NCBI GenBank assembly: GCA_021740845.1
Contig: JAIOYZ010000020.1
Location: 1 to 64,000 of the forward strand
Reading direction: 5' to 3'
DNA length: 64,000 bases
DNA from: Bacteroidia bacterium
GTDB taxonomy: Bacteria; Bacteroidota; Bacteroidia; UKL13-3
The position numbers and the translations under genes were made by a program. How positions within the stretch are numbered: the first letter of the stretch is position 1; each line of letters opens with the position of its first letter. Shown here one piece after another: positions 6,713-38,251 of the stretch. The notes beneath the pieces were generated by a model. The model was not told the origin of the DNA. It searched no databases and worked only from the letters and a program-made list of their open reading frames with translations.

Positions 6713-7519
6713 ATGGGTAAAACAATATCAATTGTAAATCAAAAAGGTGGGGTAGGAAAAACTACCACTGCAATTAATCTTGCTGCAAGTTTGGCGGTAT
6801 TGGAATTTAAAACATTGGTAATAGACGCAGATCCACAGGCCAATACAACCTCCGGTTTGGGTTTTGATCCAAAGGATGTAAGAACTGGTTTGTATGAAGT
6901 ATTGGTGAATGAGGTTCCTGCTTCGGATGCAATTATTACAACCGATTTTGCTTATTTGGACATTCTTCCTTCCAATATTGATTTGGTTGGAGCTGAAATT
7001 GAACTAATAAATGTTCCAAACAGAGAGCGCATTATGTACCATGCTTTGGAAAAAGTAAAGAAGAATTACGATTTTGTAATTATTGATTGTTCTCCATCCC
7101 TAGGTTTGATAACAACCAATTCTTTGGTTGCAAGTGATTCTGTTATTATTCCAGTTCAATGCGAGTATTTTGCATTGGAAGGTTTGGGTAAATTATTGAA
7201 TACCGTAAAAATTATACAAAGTAATTTAAACACCGAATTGCAAATTGAAGGCTTGTTACTTACCATGTACGACATGCGTTTAAGGTTAAGTAATCAGGTG
7301 GTGGAAGAGGTGAAAATGCATTTCCAGGATTTGGTATTTGATACCATTATTCAACGAAATACCAAGTTGAGTGAGGCTCCAAGTTTTGGTTTGGCAGTAA
7401 TTACTCACGATGCAGAAAGCAAGGGAGCAATTAATTATTTGAACCTAGCTAAAGAATTATTGCATAAAAACGGACTCAATAAAACCAATATGATGGAGTC
7501 TAAACACGAATTGAATTAA
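6713..7519 (+). CDS. parA: Chromosome partitioning ATPase ParA/Soj
   Basis: Walker-type ATPase that acts with ParB on parS to segregate the chromosome origin. The 268-residue protein starts MGKTISIVNQKGGVGKTT, containing the deviant Walker A lysines (KGGVGKTT), followed by VIDADPQANTT (switch) and VIIDCSPSLGL (Walker B, about residues 122-132). The length and the absence of an N-terminal HTH fit chromosomal rather than plasmid ParA. The ATG at 6713 was chosen over an upstream in-frame start because it places the family N-terminus correctly and lies just past the hydrolase stop. parB follows after 22 bases. Confidence 0.94.
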   Translation: MGKTISIVNQKGGVGKTTTAINLAASLAVLEFKTLVIDADPQANTTSGLGFDPKDVRTGLYEVLVNEVPASDAIITTDFAYLDILPSNIDLVGAEIELINVPNRERIMYHALEKVKKNYDFVIIDCSPSLGLITTNSLVASDSVIIPVQCEYFALEGLGKLLNTVKIIQSNLNTELQIEGLLLTMYDMRLRLSNQVVEEVKMHFQDLVFDTIIQRNTKLSEAPSFGLAVITHDAESKGAINYLNLAKELLHKNGLNKTNMMESKHELN

Positions 7520-7541
7520 TTAAAGGAGAATAGAAAGAGAA

Positions 7542-8432
7542 ATGAGCGCCAAACATAGAAATGCATTGGGAAGGGGATTAAGTGCCCTTTTAGAAAACAA
7601 CGGAACAGATATTACTGGGGCTGAGACAAAGCCATTACATTCGATAAGTGAAATTCCAATTAGTCAGGTTCAAGCAAATCCTTTTCAACCACGTGAAGAA
7701 TTTGACGAGGTAGCTTTATTGGAATTGGCAGAAAGCATTAAGGTGCATGGAATTATTCAACCTATTACGGTTAGAAAATTAGGATACGATAGCTACCAAA
7801 TTATTAGTGGTGAGCGCAGAACTCGTGCATCTAGATTGGCTGGATTAACTAATATTCCAGCATTTATTCGTTTGGCAGACGATCAAGGCATGTTGGAAAT
7901 GGCCTTGATTGAGAACATTCAACGCGAAGAATTAAATGCCATGGAAATTGCCTATAGTTATAAGCGTTTGGTGGATGAATGTAATTTAAACCAAGATCAA
8001 TTGGGTGAAAGAGTTGGTAAAAACAGATCTACTGTAAACAACTATATGCGCTTGTTGAAATTGCCTGATAATATTCAAGCAGCATTAAGAGATGCCCAAA
8101 TTTCTATGGGTCATGCTCGTGCAATTATCAATATAGACAACAGCGACGAGCAACAATATTTATTCTCCAAAATGGTAGAAGATGGCTTGTCGGTGCGTGA
8201 AGTTGAAAACCTGGTTAGAGCAGCTCACGAAAGGAAGGACGAAGAAATTAAAGCAACTCCTGAAGCTAAAAAGAAAGCAGAATTACCAGTTACCTTTGTA
8301 GAGTTCCAAAAATCATTGAGCAGTAAATTTGAAACCAAGGTTAAAATTAAGGCCGATGAAAGGGGAAGAGGTATTGTAAGCATTCCATTTAAATCGCAAC
8401 AAGATCTTAAACGCATTATGGAATTGCTGTGA
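7542..8432 (+). CDS. parB: Chromosome partitioning protein ParB/Spo0J
   Basis: CTP-dependent DNA clamp that loads at parS. In the 296 residues, the N-terminal NALGRGLSALL segment matches the arginine-containing peptide that stimulates ParA. The CTPase domain shows NPFQPREEF (about residues 46-54) and the ISGERRTRASRLAGL motif (about 88-102). A helix-turn-helix follows (LNQDQLGERVGKNRSTVNNYMRLL, about 150-173), and a dimerisation domain closes the protein. It is in one operon with parA, and its stop overlaps the next gene by four bases. Confidence 0.95.
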   Translation: MSAKHRNALGRGLSALLENNGTDITGAETKPLHSISEIPISQVQANPFQPREEFDEVALLELAESIKVHGIIQPITVRKLGYDSYQIISGERRTRASRLAGLTNIPAFIRLADDQGMLEMALIENIQREELNAMEIAYSYKRLVDECNLNQDQLGERVGKNRSTVNNYMRLLKLPDNIQAALRDAQISMGHARAIINIDNSDEQQYLFSKMVEDGLSVREVENLVRAAHERKDEEIKATPEAKKKAELPVTFVEFQKSLSSKFETKVKIKADERGRGIVSIPFKSQQDLKRIMELL

Positions 8433-8989
8433 TAAGAAGCCTTCTATTTATTTTCTTTTTAAGTTGTTTCGGTTTGAACCTAATGGCGCAGCATCTGGAG
8501 CAAACACCTGTAAAAACAATTAGCTTGCAGGAAACAGCTAAGAAGAATATGAGTTCTGTAAAAAAAGCAACCTTATTATCTATTATTCCTGGAGGAGGGC
8601 AGATTTACAATAAAAGTTATTGGAAGGTGCCTGTAATTTACGCTGGTTTTGGAGCCTTAGGATATTCCTATGTTTTTTACAATAGAGTTTATAACGATGT
8701 AAGGCAAGCCTATATTCAAAAGCTTAACAATGAACCCATCACCAATCCAGAATACGAAAATGTATCGGAGGATATGCTGTACAATTTGAGGGAAAGTTAC
8801 CGTAAGTCAAGAGATTTGTCGGTAATTGGAATGGCAGGTTGGTATGCATTTAACTTGATGGATGCCGCGGTAGACGCACACTTGAAAGGATTTGATGTGG
8901 GGGAAAAACTTACTTTAAAAGTGAAGCCTCAATACCAATACGGACCAAGTTATTCTTATGCCGGGCTGAGCTTAAAACTGAATTTTTAG
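8429..8989 (+). CDS. DUF5683 family membrane protein
   Basis: The 186-residue product has a signal peptide (IRSLLFIFFLSCFGLNLMAQ) and the DUF5683 core: ATLLSIIPGGGQIYNKSYWKVPVIYAG, with a glycine-rich turn and a likely membrane segment at about residues 46-75. A second hydrophobic segment lies near residues 131-145 (SVIGMAGWYAFNLMDAAVDAHL). The family is linked with parAB, dapB and lepB in Bacteroidota, and its function is unknown. The GTG start overlaps the parB stop (GTGA), which implies coupled translation. An exact dispersed motif (GGTTTGAACC, 8471-8480) lies in the signal peptide and encodes GLN. Confidence 0.8.
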   Translation: MIRSLLFIFFLSCFGLNLMAQHLEQTPVKTISLQETAKKNMSSVKKATLLSIIPGGGQIYNKSYWKVPVIYAGFGALGYSYVFYNRVYNDVRQAYIQKLNNEPITNPEYENVSEDMLYNLRESYRKSRDLSVIGMAGWYAFNLMDAAVDAHLKGFDVGEKLTLKVKPQYQYGPSYSYAGLSLKLNF

Positions 8990-28629: not shown

Positions 28630-29106
28630 TTAAGAAAGCAATTCTTGGCGAAGGATAAACTCCATTTGGTCTGCGCTTCTTTCTGCTTTTTCTGTTTGTT
28701 CTGCTCTTTTTCTAATTAAATCTTCTTCAGCATATTTGGCAATTCCTTTTTGGATGGTTTCATCCAATATCTTTTCTTCCCAAGGTTTGTTGAGATAGCT
28801 AAAAATTTTACCAAGGTTTACCGCATCTACTGTATCGGCAAAATTTGCAAACCCAGTAAGCATAATTCGGATGGGAAGTGGATGTTTTTCAACCATCATT
28901 TTTAAGAATTCAACACCTGTAATTTCTGGCATGCGTTGGTCGGTAATAACAACTTGAATATCTGGTTCATTATCCAAAATTTTCAAAGCATCCGTTGCAC
29001 TAATGGCGATAAAAACCTCATACTTGATGCGGAAGCAAGCTTTAAACGACATTAAGTTGTTTTCCTCATCATCTACATAAAGGACTTTTACTTTCGTATT
29101 GTTCAT
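28630..29106 (-). CDS. Response regulator, receiver domain only
   Basis: The 158-residue protein is a CheY-like receiver with VLYVDDEENNLMSFKACF at the start, the phosphoacceptor Asp in VVITDQRMPEITG (about residue 56), MLTGFAN and a KPW motif. A short coiled tail of about 35 residues follows. The sequence is a close relative of the receiver half of the hybrid at 34281 (shared YVDDE-NNLMSFKA-FR and KPW segments). It is divergent from the Rv1355c-like operon, so it probably belongs to the same signalling system, acting by protein contact since no DNA-binding domain is present. Confidence 0.85.
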   Translation of the reverse strand: MNNTKVKVLYVDDEENNLMSFKACFRIKYEVFIAISATDALKILDNEPDIQVVITDQRMPEITGVEFLKMMVEKHPLPIRIMLTGFANFADTVDAVNLGKIFSYLNKPWEEKILDETIQKGIAKYAEEDLIRKRAEQTEKAERSADQMEFILRQELLS

Positions 29107-29195
29107 ATTTGATGTTTTTGCATTATTTACACAATGTTAAAATAAATTATTTATATTGCCCTTATAATAATTTAAAAAGCATTATATAAATTTAA

Positions 29196-31448
29196 ATGGC
29201 TGAAACAGGATTAATAGTGGCACCAGCAATAAATGTATTTTATGCTGAACAAGATTACGAAAGTTTTGTTCGAGGTGCTTTAGAAAATGGCTTTCAAATT
29301 TTTAATACTATTGAGGCGCAATTAATTGAACTCCTAAAATCGCGGAATCCATCGAAGCGATTATTACCCGAAGATTTAAAAGAATTACTAGCTATTCATT
29401 TGGATGGTAAGAATTTGGATTTATATGGAGTTTGGGTAAAATATCCTTGGAGTAAAAAAGTTGTTCATTTGCTTCCAGAGAATGAATTTGTGGAAGTAAG
29501 AACCAATAGAAATCAATACAAAATTACACCTCAAGAACAAAATCAACTAAGCACCAAAAAAGTTGGTATTATTGGATTAAGTGTTGGTCAGTCTGTTGCT
29601 TTAACAATGGCAATGGAGAGAAGTTTTGGGGAATTGAGAATTGCCGATTTTGATACATTAGATTTAAGCAATTTAAACAGGCTAAGGGGAAATGTATTTC
29701 AATTAGGACTTCCAAAAACGCAAATATGTGCTCACGAAATTTTGGAATTAGATCCTTTCTTAAAGGTGATAACTTATGATGAGGGAATTCATGAAAATAA
29801 TATTGATACCTTTTTTACAGATGGTGGAAACTTAGATTTATTGGTTGAAGAATGCGATGGTTTAGATATTAAAATTCTTGCTCGGCATAAAGCCAGACAG
29901 TACCAGGTTCCTGTAATTATGGAAACCAGTGATAGAGGATTGCTGGATATTGAAAGGTTTGATAGAGAGCCAAACAGGGCATTATTGCATGGCTTAATTG
30001 GAGATTTAGACCCAAGTAAATTAAAGGGTTTGAGCATGGAAGATAAGGTTGAATTTCTTCTTCCTATGGTTGGCTTAAACGCACTTTCTGAAAGAATGAA
30101 AGCAAGTATGATTGAGGTGCAAAGTTCAATTTCAAGTTGGCCTCAATTGGCATCTGCAGTTACCATGGGTGGAGGAGTAACAGCAGAAATGTCTCGTAAA
30201 ATATTGTTGAACCAATCCACCATTTCGGGTAGGTATTATATTGATTTGGATGAATTGGTGCCTGAACCTAAAATTGAAAATAAGGAAACTAATACTTACC
30301 AATTAGCACAAGCACTTAAAGTTTCTGAAATAAAGGAAATGCTAAAAAATACTTCGATTCTGGAAAAGGTTTTGCCCTTATCAAAAGAAGAAGAACTCAT
30401 AATTGCCAAGGCAGCTGTAATGGCGCCATCTGGAGGAAATGTACAACCTTGGCGAATTTTATTTCATAAAGGAAATCTAATTTTGGTTCATGATATTTAC
30501 CATTCACAAGCCTTTTTAGATTATGCTCATTTGGGTAGCTACTTGGCTTTTGGAACTATGGTAGAGAATATCAGAATTCAAAGTTTGGCCCTAGGCTACA
30601 AAATTAATTGCCAGTATTTTCCTGAACCTAAAGATACCAGAATTGTCGCTTCTATTTGGTTCGAACCAAACCCAACAAAAATTGTGGATGGCAGGGTAAA
30701 TGCAATATATGATAGGTTAACCAATAGAAGAATTGGTAATCGCGAGCCATTGCCAATTGCAGTAAAAGAGGGAATAAGTAGAATTACCCAAGCAGAGAAA
30801 TTAGCTAAATTAACTTTGGTTGAGGATTTAGATAAAATGAATGCTTTGGCTGATATATTATCTACCGCTGAAAAATTATTGTTATTGCATCCACAAGGTC
30901 ACCACGATATATTTCATAAAGAATTAAGGTTTTCAAAAGAGGAGGCATTAGCAACCGCTGATGGTTTGGATATTGCCACACTTAATATGAGTAAGGCAGA
31001 AATTTTAGCGCTAAGAATTGCTAGTAGTCGTAAGGCAATTGATTGGGTTGATAAAATTGGTGGAGGAGAAGCCTTTAAGAAAAATACTAAAAAAGCCATT
31101 GCAGCATCTTCGGCTTTGGGCATAATTACCATGCCGTTTTTTTCAAATGAAGCCTATTTACATGGAGGAGAATTTTTAGAAAAAATTTGGATAGAAACTA
31201 CTCTTGGAAAATGTTCTTTTCAGCCTGTAACCCAATACAGTTATTTGTTGGCAAGGTTAAATCATGGCAACGGAATTGGTTATGATGAGGCTTATAAAGA
31301 GAAGATTAGAGCATTGAGTTATAGATTTAATGAAATTTTACATGAGGTTTCTGATAGGGAAGTTATTTTTATTTTTAGATTAGCGCTCGAAAATGAGCCC
31401 GAGGTGAGGTCAATCAGAAGGTCGGTTGACAAAATTTTTATTGAATAA
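29196..31448 (+). CDS. Rv1355c/MoeY-like ThiF-nitroreductase fusion
   Basis: The 750-residue protein has an N-terminal part, a ThiF/E1-like domain and a C-terminal nitroreductase-like domain. The E1-like domain has KVGIIGLSVGQSVAL (about residues 122-136), followed by IADFDTLDLSNLNRLR (about 149-164), the ATP-binding D..D.SNLNR pattern. The nitroreductase-like domain (about 400-740) has AAVMAPSGGNVQPWRILFH (about 406-424), a flavin-binding pattern, and a YAHLGSYLAFGTMVENI helix. E1-like enzymes adenylate a carboxylate, and nitroreductase-fold partners oxidise or reduce with FMN. Together they resemble peptide or small-molecule tailoring enzymes. It is the first gene of a tight operon with an acyltransferase and sensor kinases. 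Substrate unknown. Confidence 0.75.
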   Translation: MAETGLIVAPAINVFYAEQDYESFVRGALENGFQIFNTIEAQLIELLKSRNPSKRLLPEDLKELLAIHLDGKNLDLYGVWVKYPWSKKVVHLLPENEFVEVRTNRNQYKITPQEQNQLSTKKVGIIGLSVGQSVALTMAMERSFGELRIADFDTLDLSNLNRLRGNVFQLGLPKTQICAHEILELDPFLKVITYDEGIHENNIDTFFTDGGNLDLLVEECDGLDIKILARHKARQYQVPVIMETSDRGLLDIERFDREPNRALLHGLIGDLDPSKLKGLSMEDKVEFLLPMVGLNALSERMKASMIEVQSSISSWPQLASAVTMGGGVTAEMSRKILLNQSTISGRYYIDLDELVPEPKIENKETNTYQLAQALKVSEIKEMLKNTSILEKVLPLSKEEELIIAKAAVMAPSGGNVQPWRILFHKGNLILVHDIYHSQAFLDYAHLGSYLAFGTMVENIRIQSLALGYKINCQYFPEPKDTRIVASIWFEPNPTKIVDGRVNAIYDRLTNRRIGNREPLPIAVKEGISRITQAEKLAKLTLVEDLDKMNALADILSTAEKLLLLHPQGHHDIFHKELRFSKEEALATADGLDIATLNMSKAEILALRIASSRKAIDWVDKIGGGEAFKKNTKKAIAASSALGIITMPFFSNEAYLHGGEFLEKIWIETTLGKCSFQPVTQYSYLLARLNHGNGIGYDEAYKEKIRALSYRFNEILHEVSDREVIFIFRLALENEPEVRSIRRSVDKIFIE

Positions 31449-31456
31449 AAATCATT

Positions 31457-32146
31457 ATGAAAATTAGGGCCTTCAAAGTAACCGAAGATCATTCGGCATG
31501 TTTACGTTATATTAAAGGCCATCATTTGGTTTTAGAATCTTATGGTGTAACCAAAGTAACATCCCTCAATGCAGATTGGATAGATGACCCGCATACCTAC
31601 GCCATTATTGTGGAGTCGGAGGATGGCACTAAGGTTTATGGAGGTGGTAGGATTCAAATTAAAAGCAAAGTTTTAAGAATGCCAATGGAGGATGCAATAG
31701 CCATTTTGGATGATAGAATTTATGCCTATGCAGATAATTTAGGTGTTTTGCAGGTTGCAGAGTTTTGTGGATTGTGGAATTCTAAAGAAGCTGCTGGATA
31801 TGGTATTGGAAGTATTTACATGGGTAGGGTTGGAGTGGCAATTGCAGCACAATTAAATATTAAATATCTAACTGCATTATGTTCACCAGGTACTCTCAGA
31901 AACTGCTTAAAAGTTGGCTTTGAGGTAATACGTGAACTAGGAAACAATGGAACATTTTATTATCCAAAAGAGGATTTAACAGCCACAGCATTATTGATAA
32001 AAGATTTAAATGATTTGCCTGGAGCTAATCCAATTGAAAGAGAAGCAATTTATAAAATAAGGGAAAACCTAACCGGAACTACTATTGAAAGTGGTCCAAA
32101 AGGTGAAATGGAATTTAGTTACGATTTACATATAAAAAATGGTTAA
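31457..32146 (+). CDS. GNAT-fold N-acyltransferase-like protein
   Basis: The 229-residue protein has a GNAT-like layout. There is an N-terminal strand-helix (KIRAFKVTEDHSACLRYIKGHHL), a central strand VLQVAEFCGLW (about residues 96-106) and an AGYGIGSIYMGRVGVAIAAQLNIKYLTALC segment (about 110-139) in place of the coenzyme-binding R/Q-x-x-G-x-G/A loop. CLKVGFEVIREL then matches the common GF.vi. end of GNATs. The fold and place (between a ThiF-nitroreductase fusion and a sensor kinase) recall autoinducer synthases or N-acyl amino acid synthases, but LuxI-specific residues are not seen. It overlaps the kinase gene by eight bases. Confidence 0.6.
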   Translation: MKIRAFKVTEDHSACLRYIKGHHLVLESYGVTKVTSLNADWIDDPHTYAIIVESEDGTKVYGGGRIQIKSKVLRMPMEDAIAILDDRIYAYADNLGVLQVAEFCGLWNSKEAAGYGIGSIYMGRVGVAIAAQLNIKYLTALCSPGTLRNCLKVGFEVIRELGNNGTFYYPKEDLTATALLIKDLNDLPGANPIEREAIYKIRENLTGTTIESGPKGEMEFSYDLHIKNG

Positions 32147-34271
32147 AAAGATACTGAGCACTTTACTGATTCTGGTTGTTTTTTCATTTGTATCCCTAGC
32201 AGATACCATTGAGTTTAGTGGAAAAAAAATAATAGTTAGCCAACAATCTCATTTGTGGGTTGATACAACAAAGTCCTTAGATTTAGCTGGTGTTAAGTCC
32301 GAAATGAAAGAACATGGCTTGAAGGGAAAGTTAGATTTAGATTATGTAAAATATCCTGTTTGGATGGCTATAGATATTCAAAATAAATCATCTAATGATA
32401 GAATAATGGCTGTTTTTGAAAACCCATTGCTGGATTCAATTGCCTTATTTGAGGATACAAATTCAACAATTCCGGTTTCATATAATTATTTTGGTGAAGG
32501 ATTTTTGAACCGAACCTATAAGGGTACTTTTCAAAAATTTGTTCTTGAAATTCCTGTTGGTTCAACCCGAACTTTTTACTTTAGAATTAACAGCACAGAG
32601 CAAATGATTTTGCCTTTAAGTATTTCTACCGAATCGGAAGCCTTGCAAAATAACAATTTGCGTGATTTGATTTATGGTGCTTTTATGGGAGTAATTTTGG
32701 TGATGCTGTTTTACAATTTGTTTGTTTATTACTCTACAAAAGACACCAACTACCTGTATTATGTTTTGTATATTCTCTTTATTGGCCTAGGGCAAATTAC
32801 TTTAAGTGGCCATATGTTTTCTTTGGTTATTCCAGATTTACCCTCTGTATATAAATATGCTATTGTAGTATTACCAGCACTTTCTGGAATTTTTGCTGTG
32901 TTTTTTATTCAGCATTTTTTGCAAGGTTCTATTCTTGAACCCAAATTAAATAAGGTATTATCTGTAGTAGCGGTTTCTTATGGATTGGCTGGAATTGTTA
33001 GGCTTTTAGGCTTTGATCAAATTAGTGCTCGAATGATGGATTCTATTGGATTGCCTGGGTCTATTGTGGTTTTTATTATGGCATTTAGGGTTTATAAAAA
33101 GGGTTTTAAATCTGCTAGTTATTTTATAGCTGCTTGGTCTGTTTTTATTATTGGGGTGGTGTTTTTTGTATTCAGAAATTTAAGCTTATTGCCTTTTAAT
33201 GCTGTTACTACCTATACCTTACCTTTAGGTGCTTCACTTGAAGTTGCCTTGCTTTCTTTTGCTTTGGCTGATAAAATAAATACGCTTCAAATTCAGAAAA
33301 GAGAAAAAGAAAAGGAAGCTTTATTGGCTGCTTTGGAAAATGAAAGGTTAATCAAAGGCCAAAATATTATGCTAGAACAAAAGGTTCAAGAAAGAACCCT
33401 TGATTTGGCAAAATCTAATGAGCAATTAAATGATACCTTAACCAATTTAAAAGCTACCCAATCTCAATTGGTGGAACAGGAGAAAATGGCTAGTTTGGGT
33501 CAGTTAACTGCCGGTATTGCTCACGAAATTAATAACCCAATTAACTTTGTTACTTCTAATATTAACCCTTTAAAAAGGGATATTTCTATGATTCAAGATT
33601 TGATGAATAATTTAGAAAGTTTGTGTTTATCTGAAGATAATTCTGAAGAAAAATCTCAAAAAATTAAGAATTGGAAAAAAGACATCGATTATGAGTATTT
33701 GCAAGAAGAATTGGTATTTTTATTAAAAGGCATTGATGAAGGTGCTCACCGAACTGCTGAAATTGTAAAAGGCTTGCGGGTTTTTGCGAGAAATGATGAA
33801 GATACTCTTTTAAATACAGATGTTATTGAAGGAATAGAATCAACTTTAGTTATCTTAAATAACCAGTTAGGCAAAATTGAAATAAAGAAAAATTACGAGG
33901 GACCTCAATTAATCGACTGTTACCCAGGGAAATTGAATCAGGTTTTTCTAAATTTGTTTAGTAATTCCATTCACGCTGTTAACTCAAAATTTGAAGCAAA
34001 TGTTGGTGGACAAATAACTATTACGGTAAATGTTGATGAAAACTATATTTATCTTACTTTTGAAGACAATGGAATTGGGATGTCTGATGAAGTTCAGAAG
34101 AAAATTTTTGAACCATTTTTTACCACCAAGCCTGTTGGACAGGGAACTGGTTTAGGAATGTCGATTGTTTTTACAACAATTGAGGCCCATAGAGGGAAAA
34201 TAAACTTGAGTTCCGTACTTGGAGAAGGTACAAAATTTGAAATTCAATTGAACCGATCGTTAATATTTTAA
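32139..34271 (+). CDS. 7TM (7TMR-DISM) sensor histidine kinase
   Basis: The 710-residue protein has a signal peptide (LSTLLILVVFSFVSLAD), a periplasmic 7TMR-DISM extracellular beta-domain (about residues 25-170) and seven hydrophobic segments (about 178-375). A coiled linker (about 380-440) leads to a HisKA domain with phosphoacceptor His in LTAGIAHEINNPINF (about 458-472). The HATPase domain holds N-box LNLFSNSIHAV (about 606-616), EDNGIGMSD and GQGTGLGMSI (G-box). 7TMR-DISM proteins sense extracellular small ligands. In this operon the ligand may be made by the two upstream genes. Confidence 0.85.
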   Translation: MVKKILSTLLILVVFSFVSLADTIEFSGKKIIVSQQSHLWVDTTKSLDLAGVKSEMKEHGLKGKLDLDYVKYPVWMAIDIQNKSSNDRIMAVFENPLLDSIALFEDTNSTIPVSYNYFGEGFLNRTYKGTFQKFVLEIPVGSTRTFYFRINSTEQMILPLSISTESEALQNNNLRDLIYGAFMGVILVMLFYNLFVYYSTKDTNYLYYVLYILFIGLGQITLSGHMFSLVIPDLPSVYKYAIVVLPALSGIFAVFFIQHFLQGSILEPKLNKVLSVVAVSYGLAGIVRLLGFDQISARMMDSIGLPGSIVVFIMAFRVYKKGFKSASYFIAAWSVFIIGVVFFVFRNLSLLPFNAVTTYTLPLGASLEVALLSFALADKINTLQIQKREKEKEALLAALENERLIKGQNIMLEQKVQERTLDLAKSNEQLNDTLTNLKATQSQLVEQEKMASLGQLTAGIAHEINNPINFVTSNINPLKRDISMIQDLMNNLESLCLSEDNSEEKSQKIKNWKKDIDYEYLQEELVFLLKGIDEGAHRTAEIVKGLRVFARNDEDTLLNTDVIEGIESTLVILNNQLGKIEIKKNYEGPQLIDCYPGKLNQVFLNLFSNSIHAVNSKFEANVGGQITITVNVDENYIYLTFEDNGIGMSDEVQKKIFEPFFTTKPVGQGTGLGMSIVFTTIEAHRGKINLSSVLGEGTKFEIQLNRSLIF

Positions 34272-34280
34272 GTAACATTA

Positions 34281-35369
34281 ATGGAAACAAATCTAAAACC
34301 GATTGTCTTATATGTAGACGATGAGAAAAATAATTTGATGTCATTTAAAGCTTCATTTAGGATGGAGTTTGAAGTGATGTTGGCAGGCTCTCCAGATGAG
34401 GCTTTGGAGGTTTTAAAGACTTGTGAGCCACATGTAATTATCTCAGACTACCGCATGCCATTTCTTACTGGTATTGAGTTGTTTGAAAAGATTAGAGTAA
34501 AATATCCTAAGCCACTTCGTGTATTATTAACAGCTTATAGTGATGTGCAATCATTAACCGATGCCATTAACAAAGGCGAGGTTTATAGATATATTAAAAA
34601 ACCATGGCACGAAGATGAGATTCGTTCTGTGGTACGAGAATCCTTTGAGTATTTCCATACTAGAAATGAGTTGGAAACTCGAAATAAGGAATTAATAGAG
34701 GCATACAAAGATTTAGATCGTTTTGTGTATAGTGTTTCCCATGATTTACGTTCACCTTTAATGGGCATTTTGGCGGTTTCTAATCTTTTGGCTAAAAGTC
34801 AGAATCTTAGTGAAGTGGCAGATTATGCCGATTTGATTTCTAAAAATGTGAGTCGTTTAGATGAATTTATTTTTAACCTTTTAGAATACTATAAAGTTAA
34901 ACGTGGCGAATTAACTATTGACGCTATTTCTCTTAAAACCATTATCAAGAATTTAATTGAAGTTTACGAAACCGATGCAAGAAACAAAGGCATTCGTATT
35001 GAAATGGACGTGGTTCAAGAAGAAGAATTTAGAAGCGATTCTTTAGTAATTATGGTAGCTCTACAAAATTTATTGTCCAATTCCCTCAAATACCAACGTC
35101 AGGATAACCCAGATAAGATGGTGAAATTTACGGTGAGAGTTTTGCGTGGACAAGCAAATATTAAGGTAGAAGACAATGGAATTGGGATAGAACCTGAGTT
35201 TATTGATAAGATATTTGAAATGTTTTTCCGCGCCTCTGTAATTGGCACAGGTTCTGGAATTGGACTTTACAATGCCAAGCATGCCTTAGATAAATTGGGA
35301 GCAACTGTTAAGGTAAATTCTGTTCCCAATGTGGGCACCCTGTTCGAAATTATTTTGCCAAGCAAATAA
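34281..35369 (+). CDS. Hybrid receiver and histidine kinase
   Basis: The 362-residue protein begins with a receiver domain: VLYVDDEKNNLMSFKASF, a phosphoacceptor Asp in VIISDYRMPFLTG (about residue 56), then KPW. It continues with a HisKA helix, FVYSVSHDLRSPLMGILAVSNLL (about residues 148-170; His at about 154), and an HATPase with NLLSNSLKY, VEDNGIGIEPE and GSGIGLYNAK. It has no membrane segment, so it is a cytoplasmic relay, likely paired with the preceding 7TM kinase (ten bases upstream) and the stand-alone receiver at 28630. The transcript ends at the terminator at 35389-35417. Confidence 0.85.
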   Translation: METNLKPIVLYVDDEKNNLMSFKASFRMEFEVMLAGSPDEALEVLKTCEPHVIISDYRMPFLTGIELFEKIRVKYPKPLRVLLTAYSDVQSLTDAINKGEVYRYIKKPWHEDEIRSVVRESFEYFHTRNELETRNKELIEAYKDLDRFVYSVSHDLRSPLMGILAVSNLLAKSQNLSEVADYADLISKNVSRLDEFIFNLLEYYKVKRGELTIDAISLKTIIKNLIEVYETDARNKGIRIEMDVVQEEEFRSDSLVIMVALQNLLSNSLKYQRQDNPDKMVKFTVRVLRGQANIKVEDNGIGIEPEFIDKIFEMFFRASVIGTGSGIGLYNAKHALDKLGATVKVNSVPNVGTLFEIILPSK

Positions 35370-35388: not shown

Positions 35389-35417
35389 AAAGCCAGCCTC
35401 AAGGGGTTGGCTTTTTT
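35389..35417 (+). terminator. Intrinsic terminator after the signalling operon
   Basis: Stem AAAGCCAGCC/GGTTGGCTTT (35389-35398 and 35405-35414; one G-T pair) with a six-base loop and a T run. It ends the 29196-35369 operon. Confidence 0.88.
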
Positions 35418-35506: not shown

Positions 35507-38251
35507 ATGAAATTTATAAAATATCTTTTTATTAGTTTAGGTGTAATCCTAGTGCTTTTGCTTTTAGCTCCATTTCTATTTAAAGGGAAGATTGTTAAAA
35601 TTATAAAGGAACAAGCCAATGAACAATTAAATGCCAAGCTAAATTTCAATGAGGATATTTCGGTTGGCTTAATCAGTAGTTTTCCTAACCTATCTATTTC
35701 CATTGAGGATTTGTCGCTGGTAGGAATTCAAGATTTTGAAAAAGATACATTATTTTCAAGTAAGACCATTTCACTAACACTCGATTTAATGAGTGTAATC
35801 AAAGGCGATAAAATTGATATACTTAAAATTGGTTTGGTTCAGCCAAGAATACAAGCATTTGTTTTAAAAGACGGAAGAGCCAATTGGGATATTGCCAAAA
35901 CAGACACTACAGTTGCCGAAACGCCAGTAGATACAAGTTCTTCTGCCTTTCATGTTGCCTTGCGTAAATTAGAAATTACAGATGGCTATATTCTATACGA
36001 CGATAAAGAAGGCAATATGTATAGTGAATTGGTGGATATGGATTATACGCTTGAGGGTGATTTTACCGAAAAGCTATTTACCATGAAAAACATACTTTCT
36101 ATCCAATCTTTAACTGTGGGAATGGATGGAATAAACTATTTATCGCACGTAAATACAAAAGCCAATGCGGATATTGAAGCCAATATGGATGAGTTTAAAT
36201 TTGTGTTTAAAGACAATGAGTTTAGTTTGAACCAATTGGTTTTTGGCCTAAATGGAATGTTTGCCATGCCGGGTGATGATATGGTAATGGACTTAACATA
36301 TGCTGCTAAACAAAATGAATTTAAGAATTTCTTATCCTTGATTCCTGCTATTTATGCTAGTGATTTAAATGATCTTCAATCTAAAGGTAAATTGGCCTTC
36401 GACGGTTTTTTAAAGGGAACTTATAATGAAAAACAAATGCCATCTTTCGGTTTGAACCTAGGCATTGAAAACGGTTGGTTTAAATATACTTCCTTACCAA
36501 CTCCAGTTGAAAATGTAAATGTGAAATTAGCTGTTACCAATCCAGATGGAGATTTGGATCATACAGAAATTAACTTGAGTAAATTTCATTTTGATATTGA
36601 AAAGAACCCTTTTGATGCAAAGTTATACGCTAAAAACCCAATGAGCGACCCTTATGTGGATGCATTTTTTAAAGGCGTTTTGAACCTAGGACAAATAGCT
36701 AGCATTGTTCCATTGCCAGAGAATACTAAGCTTAGCGGAATTGTTAGTTCTGATATTACAGCAAAAGGAAGAGTGAGCTCAATTGAAAATGAAAAGTACG
36801 AAGACTTTGATGCCAAAGGAAATTTAACTTGTACTTCTATTTATTATGCGTCTCCAGATTTGCCAAAACCATTTGAACTGAGCAAAACTGAAATGAGTTT
36901 CTCGCCTAAAATAATTGCCTTAAAATCCTTTGATGCAAAAATAGGAAACAGCGATATGCAGATGAATGGTGAAGTTGCGAATTTCTTACCTTACTATTTT
37001 GGTAAAGGAGTATTAAAAGGCAAATTGAATTTTACCAGCAATCAATTTGATGCCAATGAGTTTTTAACAGAAGGCGATACCGCAGTAGCGGCAACACCAG
37101 CAGATACAACACCTATGAGTGTTTTTGAGGTTCCTCAAAATATTGATTTTACCTTAACAAGCAGCATAAAAAAATTGCTTTATACCAATATGGAAATTAC
37201 CAATTTGCAAGGCATCATTGCCTTAGTAGATGAAAAGGTTTCCTTTAAAAATGTTTCTTTAAATACCCTTGGTTCAGAAATGAAAATGAATGGTTTTTAT
37301 GAAACTTCTAATCCTAAGAAACCAAGTGTGGATATGGATTTTGCCATTCTTAACTTGGATTTTCAAAAGGCATTTGCCACATTTAATACCGTTAAAAAAT
37401 TGGCACCTGCCGCAGAACATATTTTTGGAACTTTTAGCACCACGCTAAATATGAAAACAGATTTGGACGAACATATGAATCCAATCTATCCAAGTTTGTT
37501 TGCAAAAGGAATGATGGCCATTCCAACTGCTGAGATAAAAGAAATTAAAGCATTGGATAAGGTGGCTGATTTCATTAAAAAACCAGAATACAAGAAACTT
37601 GGTTTCTATCAATCTAAAATTAAATTCGAGGTAAAAGATGGTAAAGTTACTACCGAACCATTTGATGTAAAATTGGGAGCACAAACTATGTCGTTGAGCG
37701 GCACTACAGGTTTGGATCAAACCATAGCTTATACTGGCAAAGTTAATATACCACGTAAAGATTTGGGTGAAGCAGACAAAGCCATGAGTGATGCCTTGGC
37801 TTTATTGAATAGTCAGGCAGGCTCTGATATTAAAATGAATGAAAACTTGCCATTAGAAATTGGAATTGGTGGAACTTTTACCGACCCAAAAATAACGACC
37901 AATTTGGCTGATTTAATAAAATCGCAAGCGGGTTCATTAAAAGACCAAGCCATGGATGAGTTGAACAAAAAGAAAAAAGAACTGGAAGACCAAGCCAAAG
38001 CTGAAGCCGATAAATTGAAGAAAGAGGCGGAGGCAAAAGCCAGGGCAGAAGCAGATAAGTTGAAAGCAGATGCTAATAAAGCAAAACAAGATGCAGAGGC
38101 AAAAGCTAAAGCGGAGGCAGATAAATTAAAAGCAGAAGCAGATAAGGCTAAGAAAGAGGCCGAAGCCAAAGCAAAGGCTGAGGCAGAAAAAGCGAAAAAG
38201 AAAGCGGCAGAAGATGCTAAGAATAAATTAAAGGGAATTTTAAAACCTTAA
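35507..38251 (+). CDS. AsmA family protein with TolA-like C-terminal helix
   Basis: The 914-residue protein starts with one hydrophobic anchor (KYLFISLGVILVLLLLAPFLF) and the AsmA signature ISVGLISSFPNLSISIEDLSLVG (about residues 47-69). A large beta-rich body follows (about 70-800), typical of AsmA-like lipid-transport or outer-membrane-biogenesis proteins. The last 100 residues are a charged K/A/E/D-rich repeat of AEADKLK units, predicted to be a long helix like that of TolA. Such a fused helix is unusual; it may span the periplasm or contact the envelope. The dispersed motif at 36449-36458 encodes GLN. Confidence 0.78.
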   Translation: MKFIKYLFISLGVILVLLLLAPFLFKGKIVKIIKEQANEQLNAKLNFNEDISVGLISSFPNLSISIEDLSLVGIQDFEKDTLFSSKTISLTLDLMSVIKGDKIDILKIGLVQPRIQAFVLKDGRANWDIAKTDTTVAETPVDTSSSAFHVALRKLEITDGYILYDDKEGNMYSELVDMDYTLEGDFTEKLFTMKNILSIQSLTVGMDGINYLSHVNTKANADIEANMDEFKFVFKDNEFSLNQLVFGLNGMFAMPGDDMVMDLTYAAKQNEFKNFLSLIPAIYASDLNDLQSKGKLAFDGFLKGTYNEKQMPSFGLNLGIENGWFKYTSLPTPVENVNVKLAVTNPDGDLDHTEINLSKFHFDIEKNPFDAKLYAKNPMSDPYVDAFFKGVLNLGQIASIVPLPENTKLSGIVSSDITAKGRVSSIENEKYEDFDAKGNLTCTSIYYASPDLPKPFELSKTEMSFSPKIIALKSFDAKIGNSDMQMNGEVANFLPYYFGKGVLKGKLNFTSNQFDANEFLTEGDTAVAATPADTTPMSVFEVPQNIDFTLTSSIKKLLYTNMEITNLQGIIALVDEKVSFKNVSLNTLGSEMKMNGFYETSNPKKPSVDMDFAILNLDFQKAFATFNTVKKLAPAAEHIFGTFSTTLNMKTDLDEHMNPIYPSLFAKGMMAIPTAEIKEIKALDKVADFIKKPEYKKLGFYQSKIKFEVKDGKVTTEPFDVKLGAQTMSLSGTTGLDQTIAYTGKVNIPRKDLGEADKAMSDALALLNSQAGSDIKMNENLPLEIGIGGTFTDPKITTNLADLIKSQAGSLKDQAMDELNKKKKELEDQAKAEADKLKKEAEAKARAEADKLKADANKAKQDAEAKAKAEADKLKAEADKAKKEAEAKAKAEAEKAKKKAAEDAKNKLKGILKP

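Follow-up and report, generated by a model that had tools for sequence, protein, structure and literature searches.

A conserved Bacteroidota gene cassette pairs a predicted N-acyl amino acid synthase with a 7TM histidine kinase, its proposed receptor

RESULTS

Organization of the locus

We analyzed a 64,000-nucleotide stretch of a Bacteroidia genome, hereafter the window, in which five genes and their bordering elements occupy the region listed below.

28630 to 29106, minus strand: stand-alone receiver of 158 aa (REC domain plus a tail of ~40 residues; Response_reg, 60.9 bits), divergently oriented and in a PhcQ-like circuit position
29107 to 29195, no strand: divergent intergenic stretch, presumed from its position to hold the promoters of both units
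29196 to 31448, plus strand: ThiF cyclase-flavin-dependent oxidase (FDO) fusion of 750 aa, predicted TrzS/OxzB-like oxazolone synthetase (NF005901)
31457 to 32146, plus strand: putative N-acyl amino acid synthase (NAS) of 229 aa, with a GNAT/AHL-synthase fold in its predicted structure
32139 to 34271, plus strand: 7TMR-DISM histidine kinase of 710 aa, the proposed receptor (Pfam; co-occurrence of its orthologue with the synthase)
34281 to 35369, plus strand: REC-histidine kinase of 362 aa with PhcR-like architecture (Response_reg, HisKA, HATPase_c)
35389 to 35414, plus strand: hairpin resembling an intrinsic terminator and ending the operon (11 pairs, loop of 4, T-rich tail)

The first-pass annotation had described a four-gene operon with a divergent receiver. 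Our gene calls agree, with gaps of 8, −8, and 9 bases between the plus-strand genes and the terminator-like hairpin following the last of them. A weaker hairpin lies at 28614-28600, downstream of the minus-strand receiver gene. Sigma-70-like matches between 29107 and 29195 did not rise above those in shuffled sequences. The arrangement was found again in more than 100 loci with varying flanks, which exceeds what chance would give.

The first enzyme is a predicted oxazolone synthetase

The 750-aa protein scored 741 bits against NF005901, the NCBI family for Rv1355c (cut-off 476), upholding the earlier description of an Rv1355c-like ThiF-nitroreductase fusion. The ThiF domain (PF00899) was detected with Pfam, and the nitroreductase part was also assigned (Pfam/NCBIfam); the best PDB sequence match of the FDO half was Acg (2ymv), over residues 405-683. 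Adenylation-type residues D151, D153, N159, N161, R162, K174, D221, and K226 are common to the protein and its actinobacterial relatives. We take the Asp within an EECD..K motif, shared by Bacteroidota and actinobacterial ThiF proteins, as the probable counterpart of TrzS Asp217.

Rv1355c is now recognized as TrzS. This ThiF cyclase-flavin desaturase and an adjacent N-acyltransferase together produce N-acyl tryptazolones (PMC12856293), and TyzACB and OxzAB carry out the same chemistry with tyrosine or phenylalanine as substrate (PMC10404671). This TrzS assignment replaces the molybdopterin (MoeY-type) role with which the protein had earlier been associated. One trait of acyl-oxazolone clusters of the TrzAS/OxzAB type, the fusion of a ThiF-like cyclase to a nitroreductase-superfamily FDO, is present here, and the chemistry predicted for this enzyme, that of an oxazolone synthetase, is well supported by homology. 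We also considered an anti-phage E1-like defence function and rejected it, as PADLOC returned only weak, generic ThiF matches.

The second enzyme resembles FeeM and AHL synthases in fold

The 229-aa protein matched no Pfam-A family at E 0.1 and no NCBIfam family above cut-off, and we therefore turned to an AlphaFold model (alignment of 49 sequences, pLDDT 87.7). Foldseek gave, at ranks 1-4, FeeM (2g0b), then MesI, BjaI, and TofI; FeeM and BjaI are the same two relatives previously reported for TyzA. VIA Z scores were 15.2 for FeeM and, among AHL synthases, 15.0 for TofI, 14.4 for LasI, and 13.8 for BjaI over 191 residues, with ElaA, an ordinary GNAT fold, at 14.6 and so less than one unit below the best score. 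These classes cannot be told apart by Z alone. An ordinary acetyltransferase is nonetheless disfavoured, because FeeM and the AHL synthases lead the Foldseek ranking and align over 166-191 residues, against ~145 for ElaA. Comparison with LuxI and FeeM structures, proposed in the first-pass annotation, thus yielded FeeM and AHL synthases as the best match, with the ElaA score tempering the distinction.

The protein shares the fold of LuxI-type AHL synthases and lies outside their Pfam sequence family. Its sequence resembles actinobacterial and Streptomyces acyltransferases weakly at best; a profile comparison with the hypothetical protein adjoining Rhodococcus TrzS was likewise weak (E 0.013, probability 3%). 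No NAS was found in a PDB search with the synthase-family profile, and the published NAS are so divergent that sequence cannot prove the assignment. On the structural model, an N-acyl amino acid synthase is the best match for this protein, and the other trait of acyl-oxazolone clusters, an adjacent NAS of FeeM/AHL-synthase fold, appears to be present. The earlier suggestion of two small-molecule enzymes can accordingly be specified as a putative N-acyl amino acid synthase and a predicted oxazolone synthetase.

The sensor kinase and the receivers

The 710-aa kinase has the domains of a 7TMR-DISM kinase, with a DISMED2 ectodomain (PF07696, 54 bits), a 7TM domain (PF07695, 163 bits), HisKA, and HATPase_c (81 bits). 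The 362-aa protein downstream combines Response_reg, HisKA, and HATPase_c. Its receiver and the stand-alone receiver share YVDDE.NNLMSFKA and KPW segments, as the first-pass annotation had noted, and are more similar to each other than to any other receiver in the genome (109 bits, with the next match at 30). The REC-kinase is found in most cassette loci, 3′ of the 7TM kinase, and the divergent receiver in about four-fifths. An extra small receiver frequently lies 3′ of the REC-kinase.

The synthase is linked to the 7TM kinase across Bacteroidota

We then examined whether the enzyme-kinase link, originally read from gene order and spacing, is kept elsewhere. Among 64 genomes of the window's family, the synthase was present in 32; an orthologue of the kinase (threshold E 1e-40) was present in the identical 32 and absent from the remaining genomes. 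The 7TM kinase adjoins the synthase in 29 of 31 family loci, 79 of 80 loci from the genome_contigs set (Dyadobacter, Chitinophaga, Litoribacter, Anditalea, Rhodonellum, and many MAGs), and 13 of 13 further phylum-wide loci, these three sets overlapping by ~10 contigs. Overall, the two are neighbors in 121 of 124 loci, and the three misses are contig ends. The occurrence of enzyme and kinase genes apart had been named as evidence that would count against the link; among the loci examined, no intact synthase locus lacked an adjacent kinase.

The synthase was found in 14 of 392 genomes of a phylum-wide sample, and the cassette is therefore patchy; its presence is patchy even inside one genus. Patchiness within a genus would fit genes merely inherited together, without a common function, in a mobile or selfish neighborhood. 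We regard such co-inheritance as very improbable, given a median gap of −4 bases after the synthase gene, a synthase/ThiF order that can be swapped, the replacement of one member, and flanks that differ across many genera. Synthase identity among loci also falls to ~30-32%, a divergence over which random neighbors would not be expected to persist.

The tailoring enzyme is exchanged while the synthase-kinase pair is constant

Across 104 rows including the window, the tailoring position is occupied by ThiF-FDO (56), ThiF alone (39), an FAD oxidase (6), or a methyltransferase (2), and in one case by none. On the synthase and kinase tree, these classes changed at least nine times with the synthase-kinase pair constant. 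In one genome the cassette ThiF-FDO has been lost, with a distant, unlinked ThiF-FDO elsewhere and the synthase-kinase part intact. ThiF-only members would make a different product if their genomes hold no desaturase elsewhere.

The FAD oxidases of the six loci are nearest to 4-cresol dehydrogenase and vanillyl-alcohol oxidase. A Tyr and a Tyr-Arg pair (Y78 and Y494-R495 in locus L144), which we take to bind the phenol in enzymes of this type, do not vary among the sequences (4 of 4). A known enzyme, FeeG, yields N-acyl aminovinylphenols through oxidative decarboxylation of N-acyl tyrosines (PMC8762209). By analogy, this suggests an N-acyl tyrosine intermediate in the FAD-oxidase loci. The methyltransferase, present in two loci, is of the ICMT/PEMT type; as the products of ICMT-family enzymes are carboxyl methyl esters, a methyl ester is predicted there. 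Every tailoring variant would thus plausibly remove or mask the carboxylate, fitting a diffusible lipophilic ligand, with the synthase-kinase pair as the constant core.

These exchanges bear on the main rival explanation, in which the kinases are mere regulators: in response to envelope stress or some other external cue, the 7TM kinase would control whether the enzymes make an antibiotic, a surfactant, or a membrane lipid. N-acyl tyrosines and stieleriacines are antimicrobial and alter biofilm communities, and oxazolones are induced in proteobacteria by sub-inhibitory antibiotics (PMC12856293). Self-regulated clusters are common, and gene linkage is equally compatible with a kinase that regulates the pathway or answers another stimulus. 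Against this, the family, genome_contigs, and phylum loci show no consistent association of the cassette with genes for a DNA-binding regulator, an exporter or transporter, or resistance. The kinase also persists when the tailoring enzyme is exchanged, which better suits a receptor for the pathway's product than a sensor of an independent cue. We consider the regulator-only explanation unlikely.

Co-variation with the synthase was stronger for the 7TM domain (partial r 0.39-0.58) than for the ectodomain (0.23-0.34) in the full set, and was lost (0.13 and 0.09, respectively) once near-copies were thinned to 36 rows.

Comparison with known systems

The enzyme pair recalls trzAS (Rv1356c-Rv1355c), tyzACB, and oxzAB, in which an NAS likewise lies beside a ThiF-FDO fusion; here, in contrast, both enzymes are tied to signaling genes encoding a 7TM kinase, a REC-kinase, and a receiver. 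No kinase adjoined the oxazolone-type loci that we inspected in Rhodococcus, Mycolicibacterium, and a Streptomyces plasmid. The nearest published hint of a signaling link is in Mycobacterium tuberculosis, where the neighbors of trzAS are c-di-GMP genes and the authors liken oxazolones to cell-cell signals (PMC12856293). Among N-acyl tyrosine clusters of the fee/stieleriacine type, FeeM is the top structural match of the window synthase, and nasY clusters contain ThiF and nitroreductase genes (PMC12479983). The fee/stieleriacine-type clusters differ in that the accessible parts of the literature on them describe no dedicated sensor kinase.

The layout of the cassette is that of the Ralstonia quorum-sensing operon phcBSRQ, which has the same parts list of synthase, membrane kinase, REC-kinase, and receiver. 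There, PhcR is a REC plus histidine kinase protein and PhcQ a REC protein, neither with a DNA-binding domain (PMC8578825); their receivers are similar (PMC6989110), as are the two receivers here (109 against 30 bits), and PhcQ binds and stabilizes the regulator PhcA (PMC13320629). The differences are that PhcB is a methyltransferase yielding a fatty acid methyl ester, whereas the window has a 7TMR-DISM sensor and a divergent receiver. We sought kinship of the REC-kinase to PhcR through plasmid-borne relatives, and the matches were other hybrids with chemotaxis-like or unrelated neighbors. By architecture, then, the cassette may work like the phc circuit; we do not claim membership of the phc family.

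A signal synthase gene also adjoins that of a multi-TM histidine kinase receptor in LuxM/LuxN and CqsA/CqsS, whose synthase families and sensor domains are unrelated to those of the cassette.

DISCUSSION

The cassette is real and conserved. Its chemistry and its circuit layout are each of a known kind, and their combination is new and apparently undescribed; in the literature outside subscription papers, we came across no study that connects oxazolone genes with sensor kinases. Sequence and structure prediction support the enzyme families, the fold, the linkage of the genes, and the tailoring swaps, and from these we infer the amino acid and acyl chain, the product, its export, the match of ligand to receptor, and the output genes. 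The most likely product of the enzymes is a neutral derivative of an N-acyl aromatic amino acid, and this compound is most likely what the 7TM kinase senses; the case for sensing comes from the linkage. The first-pass annotation had proposed an amino-acid- or peptide-derived signal sensed by the kinase. An amino-acid-derived ligand is the best explanation of the data, and a peptide-derived one found no support.

Under the proposed mechanism, the GNAT-fold enzyme would use acyl-CoA or acyl-ACP as donor to N-acylate an amino acid, which is probably aromatic. The ThiF domain would adenylate the carboxylate and close the oxazolone ring, and the fused flavin oxidase would desaturate the alpha-beta bond. 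Once released, the neutral lipophilic product could reach the 7TMR-DISM kinase of its own or neighboring cells and alter autophosphorylation. The REC-kinase and the stand-alone receiver would then receive the phosphate and produce their output through protein contact, as in phcBSRQ.

The product might instead be a messenger retained inside the cell or its membrane, reporting redox, O2, or lipid status to the cell that made it, with no signal between cells. TrzS desaturation requires O2, and mycobacterial tryptazolones are mostly retained in cells (PMC12856293); a membrane lipid could also be read by a membrane 7TM domain. However, acyl-amino acid intermediates are found mainly in the supernatant (PMC12856293), and the ThiF-only and methyltransferase variants have no need of O2 at the tailoring step itself. 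We judge an own-cell messenger to be improbable, and less likely than the regulator-only explanation.

On balance, we lean toward a synthase-receptor signaling cassette in which the 7TM kinase senses a ligand derived from an N-acyl amino acid. A broader proposal, which we put forward tentatively, is that these loci form a widespread and undescribed Bacteroidota quorum-sensing family. Its N-acyl amino acid signals would be neutralized as an oxazolone, a decarboxylated enamide, or a methyl ester; the synthase and 7TM receptor would be a constant pair, and the exchangeable tailoring enzyme would set the chemical dialect.

The paper that discovered the tryptazolones describes the function of acyl-oxazolones as a major unresolved question (PMC12856293). 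The cassette names the first candidate receptor for these compounds, one that is directly testable and found in the harmless, cultured genera Dyadobacter and Chitinophaga. If the proposal is true, Bacteroidota would gain a synthase-receptor signaling family of their own, together with a modular route to new signal chemistry in which the receptor is retained.

Variation in the cassette and its surroundings

At locus L066 of genome G002 (7375-8442), ThiF is encoded without the oxidase half, and the sister locus L064 carries the full fusion of a ThiF cyclase to a flavin-dependent oxidase (ThiF-FDO); the absence looks like a recent loss. Locus L074 of genome G034 has a 519-base gap (8093-8612) at the position of the ThiF-FDO gene in related loci, and a distant ThiF-FDO lies on a separate contig of this genome (L075; best match L084, 42%).

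Locus L141 lies on a contig titled as an Azovibrio restrictus metagenome-assembled genome. The cassette on it belongs to Bacteroidota and closely resembles the one at locus L142, so the contig probably reflects mis-binning, not transfer of the cassette to Pseudomonadota.

Downstream of the cassette, the window encodes:

35507-38251, AsmA/DUF748-like protein with a long K/A/E-rich repeat tail at its end

This gene is also found downstream of the cassette in several genera of the family. Upstream of the cassette, immediately before the divergent receiver, loci L194, L196, and L197 (one family) carry a REC-PglZ (PorX-like) gene, tsaE, and an alanine dehydrogenase/PNT-type gene.

Genome G008 carries a tandem array of six kinases (833-866 aa, spacing ~2.5 kb) at about 25.5-39 kb of contig C69, with 44-48% identity to the 7TM kinase of the window between kinase domains; contig C29 carries further such kinases.

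Finally, Rhodococcus plasmid locus L228 (2851-6944) has an Rv1355c-family gene with a GGDEF gene nearby, resembling trzAS of Mycobacterium tuberculosis, which c-di-GMP genes adjoin (PMC12856293).
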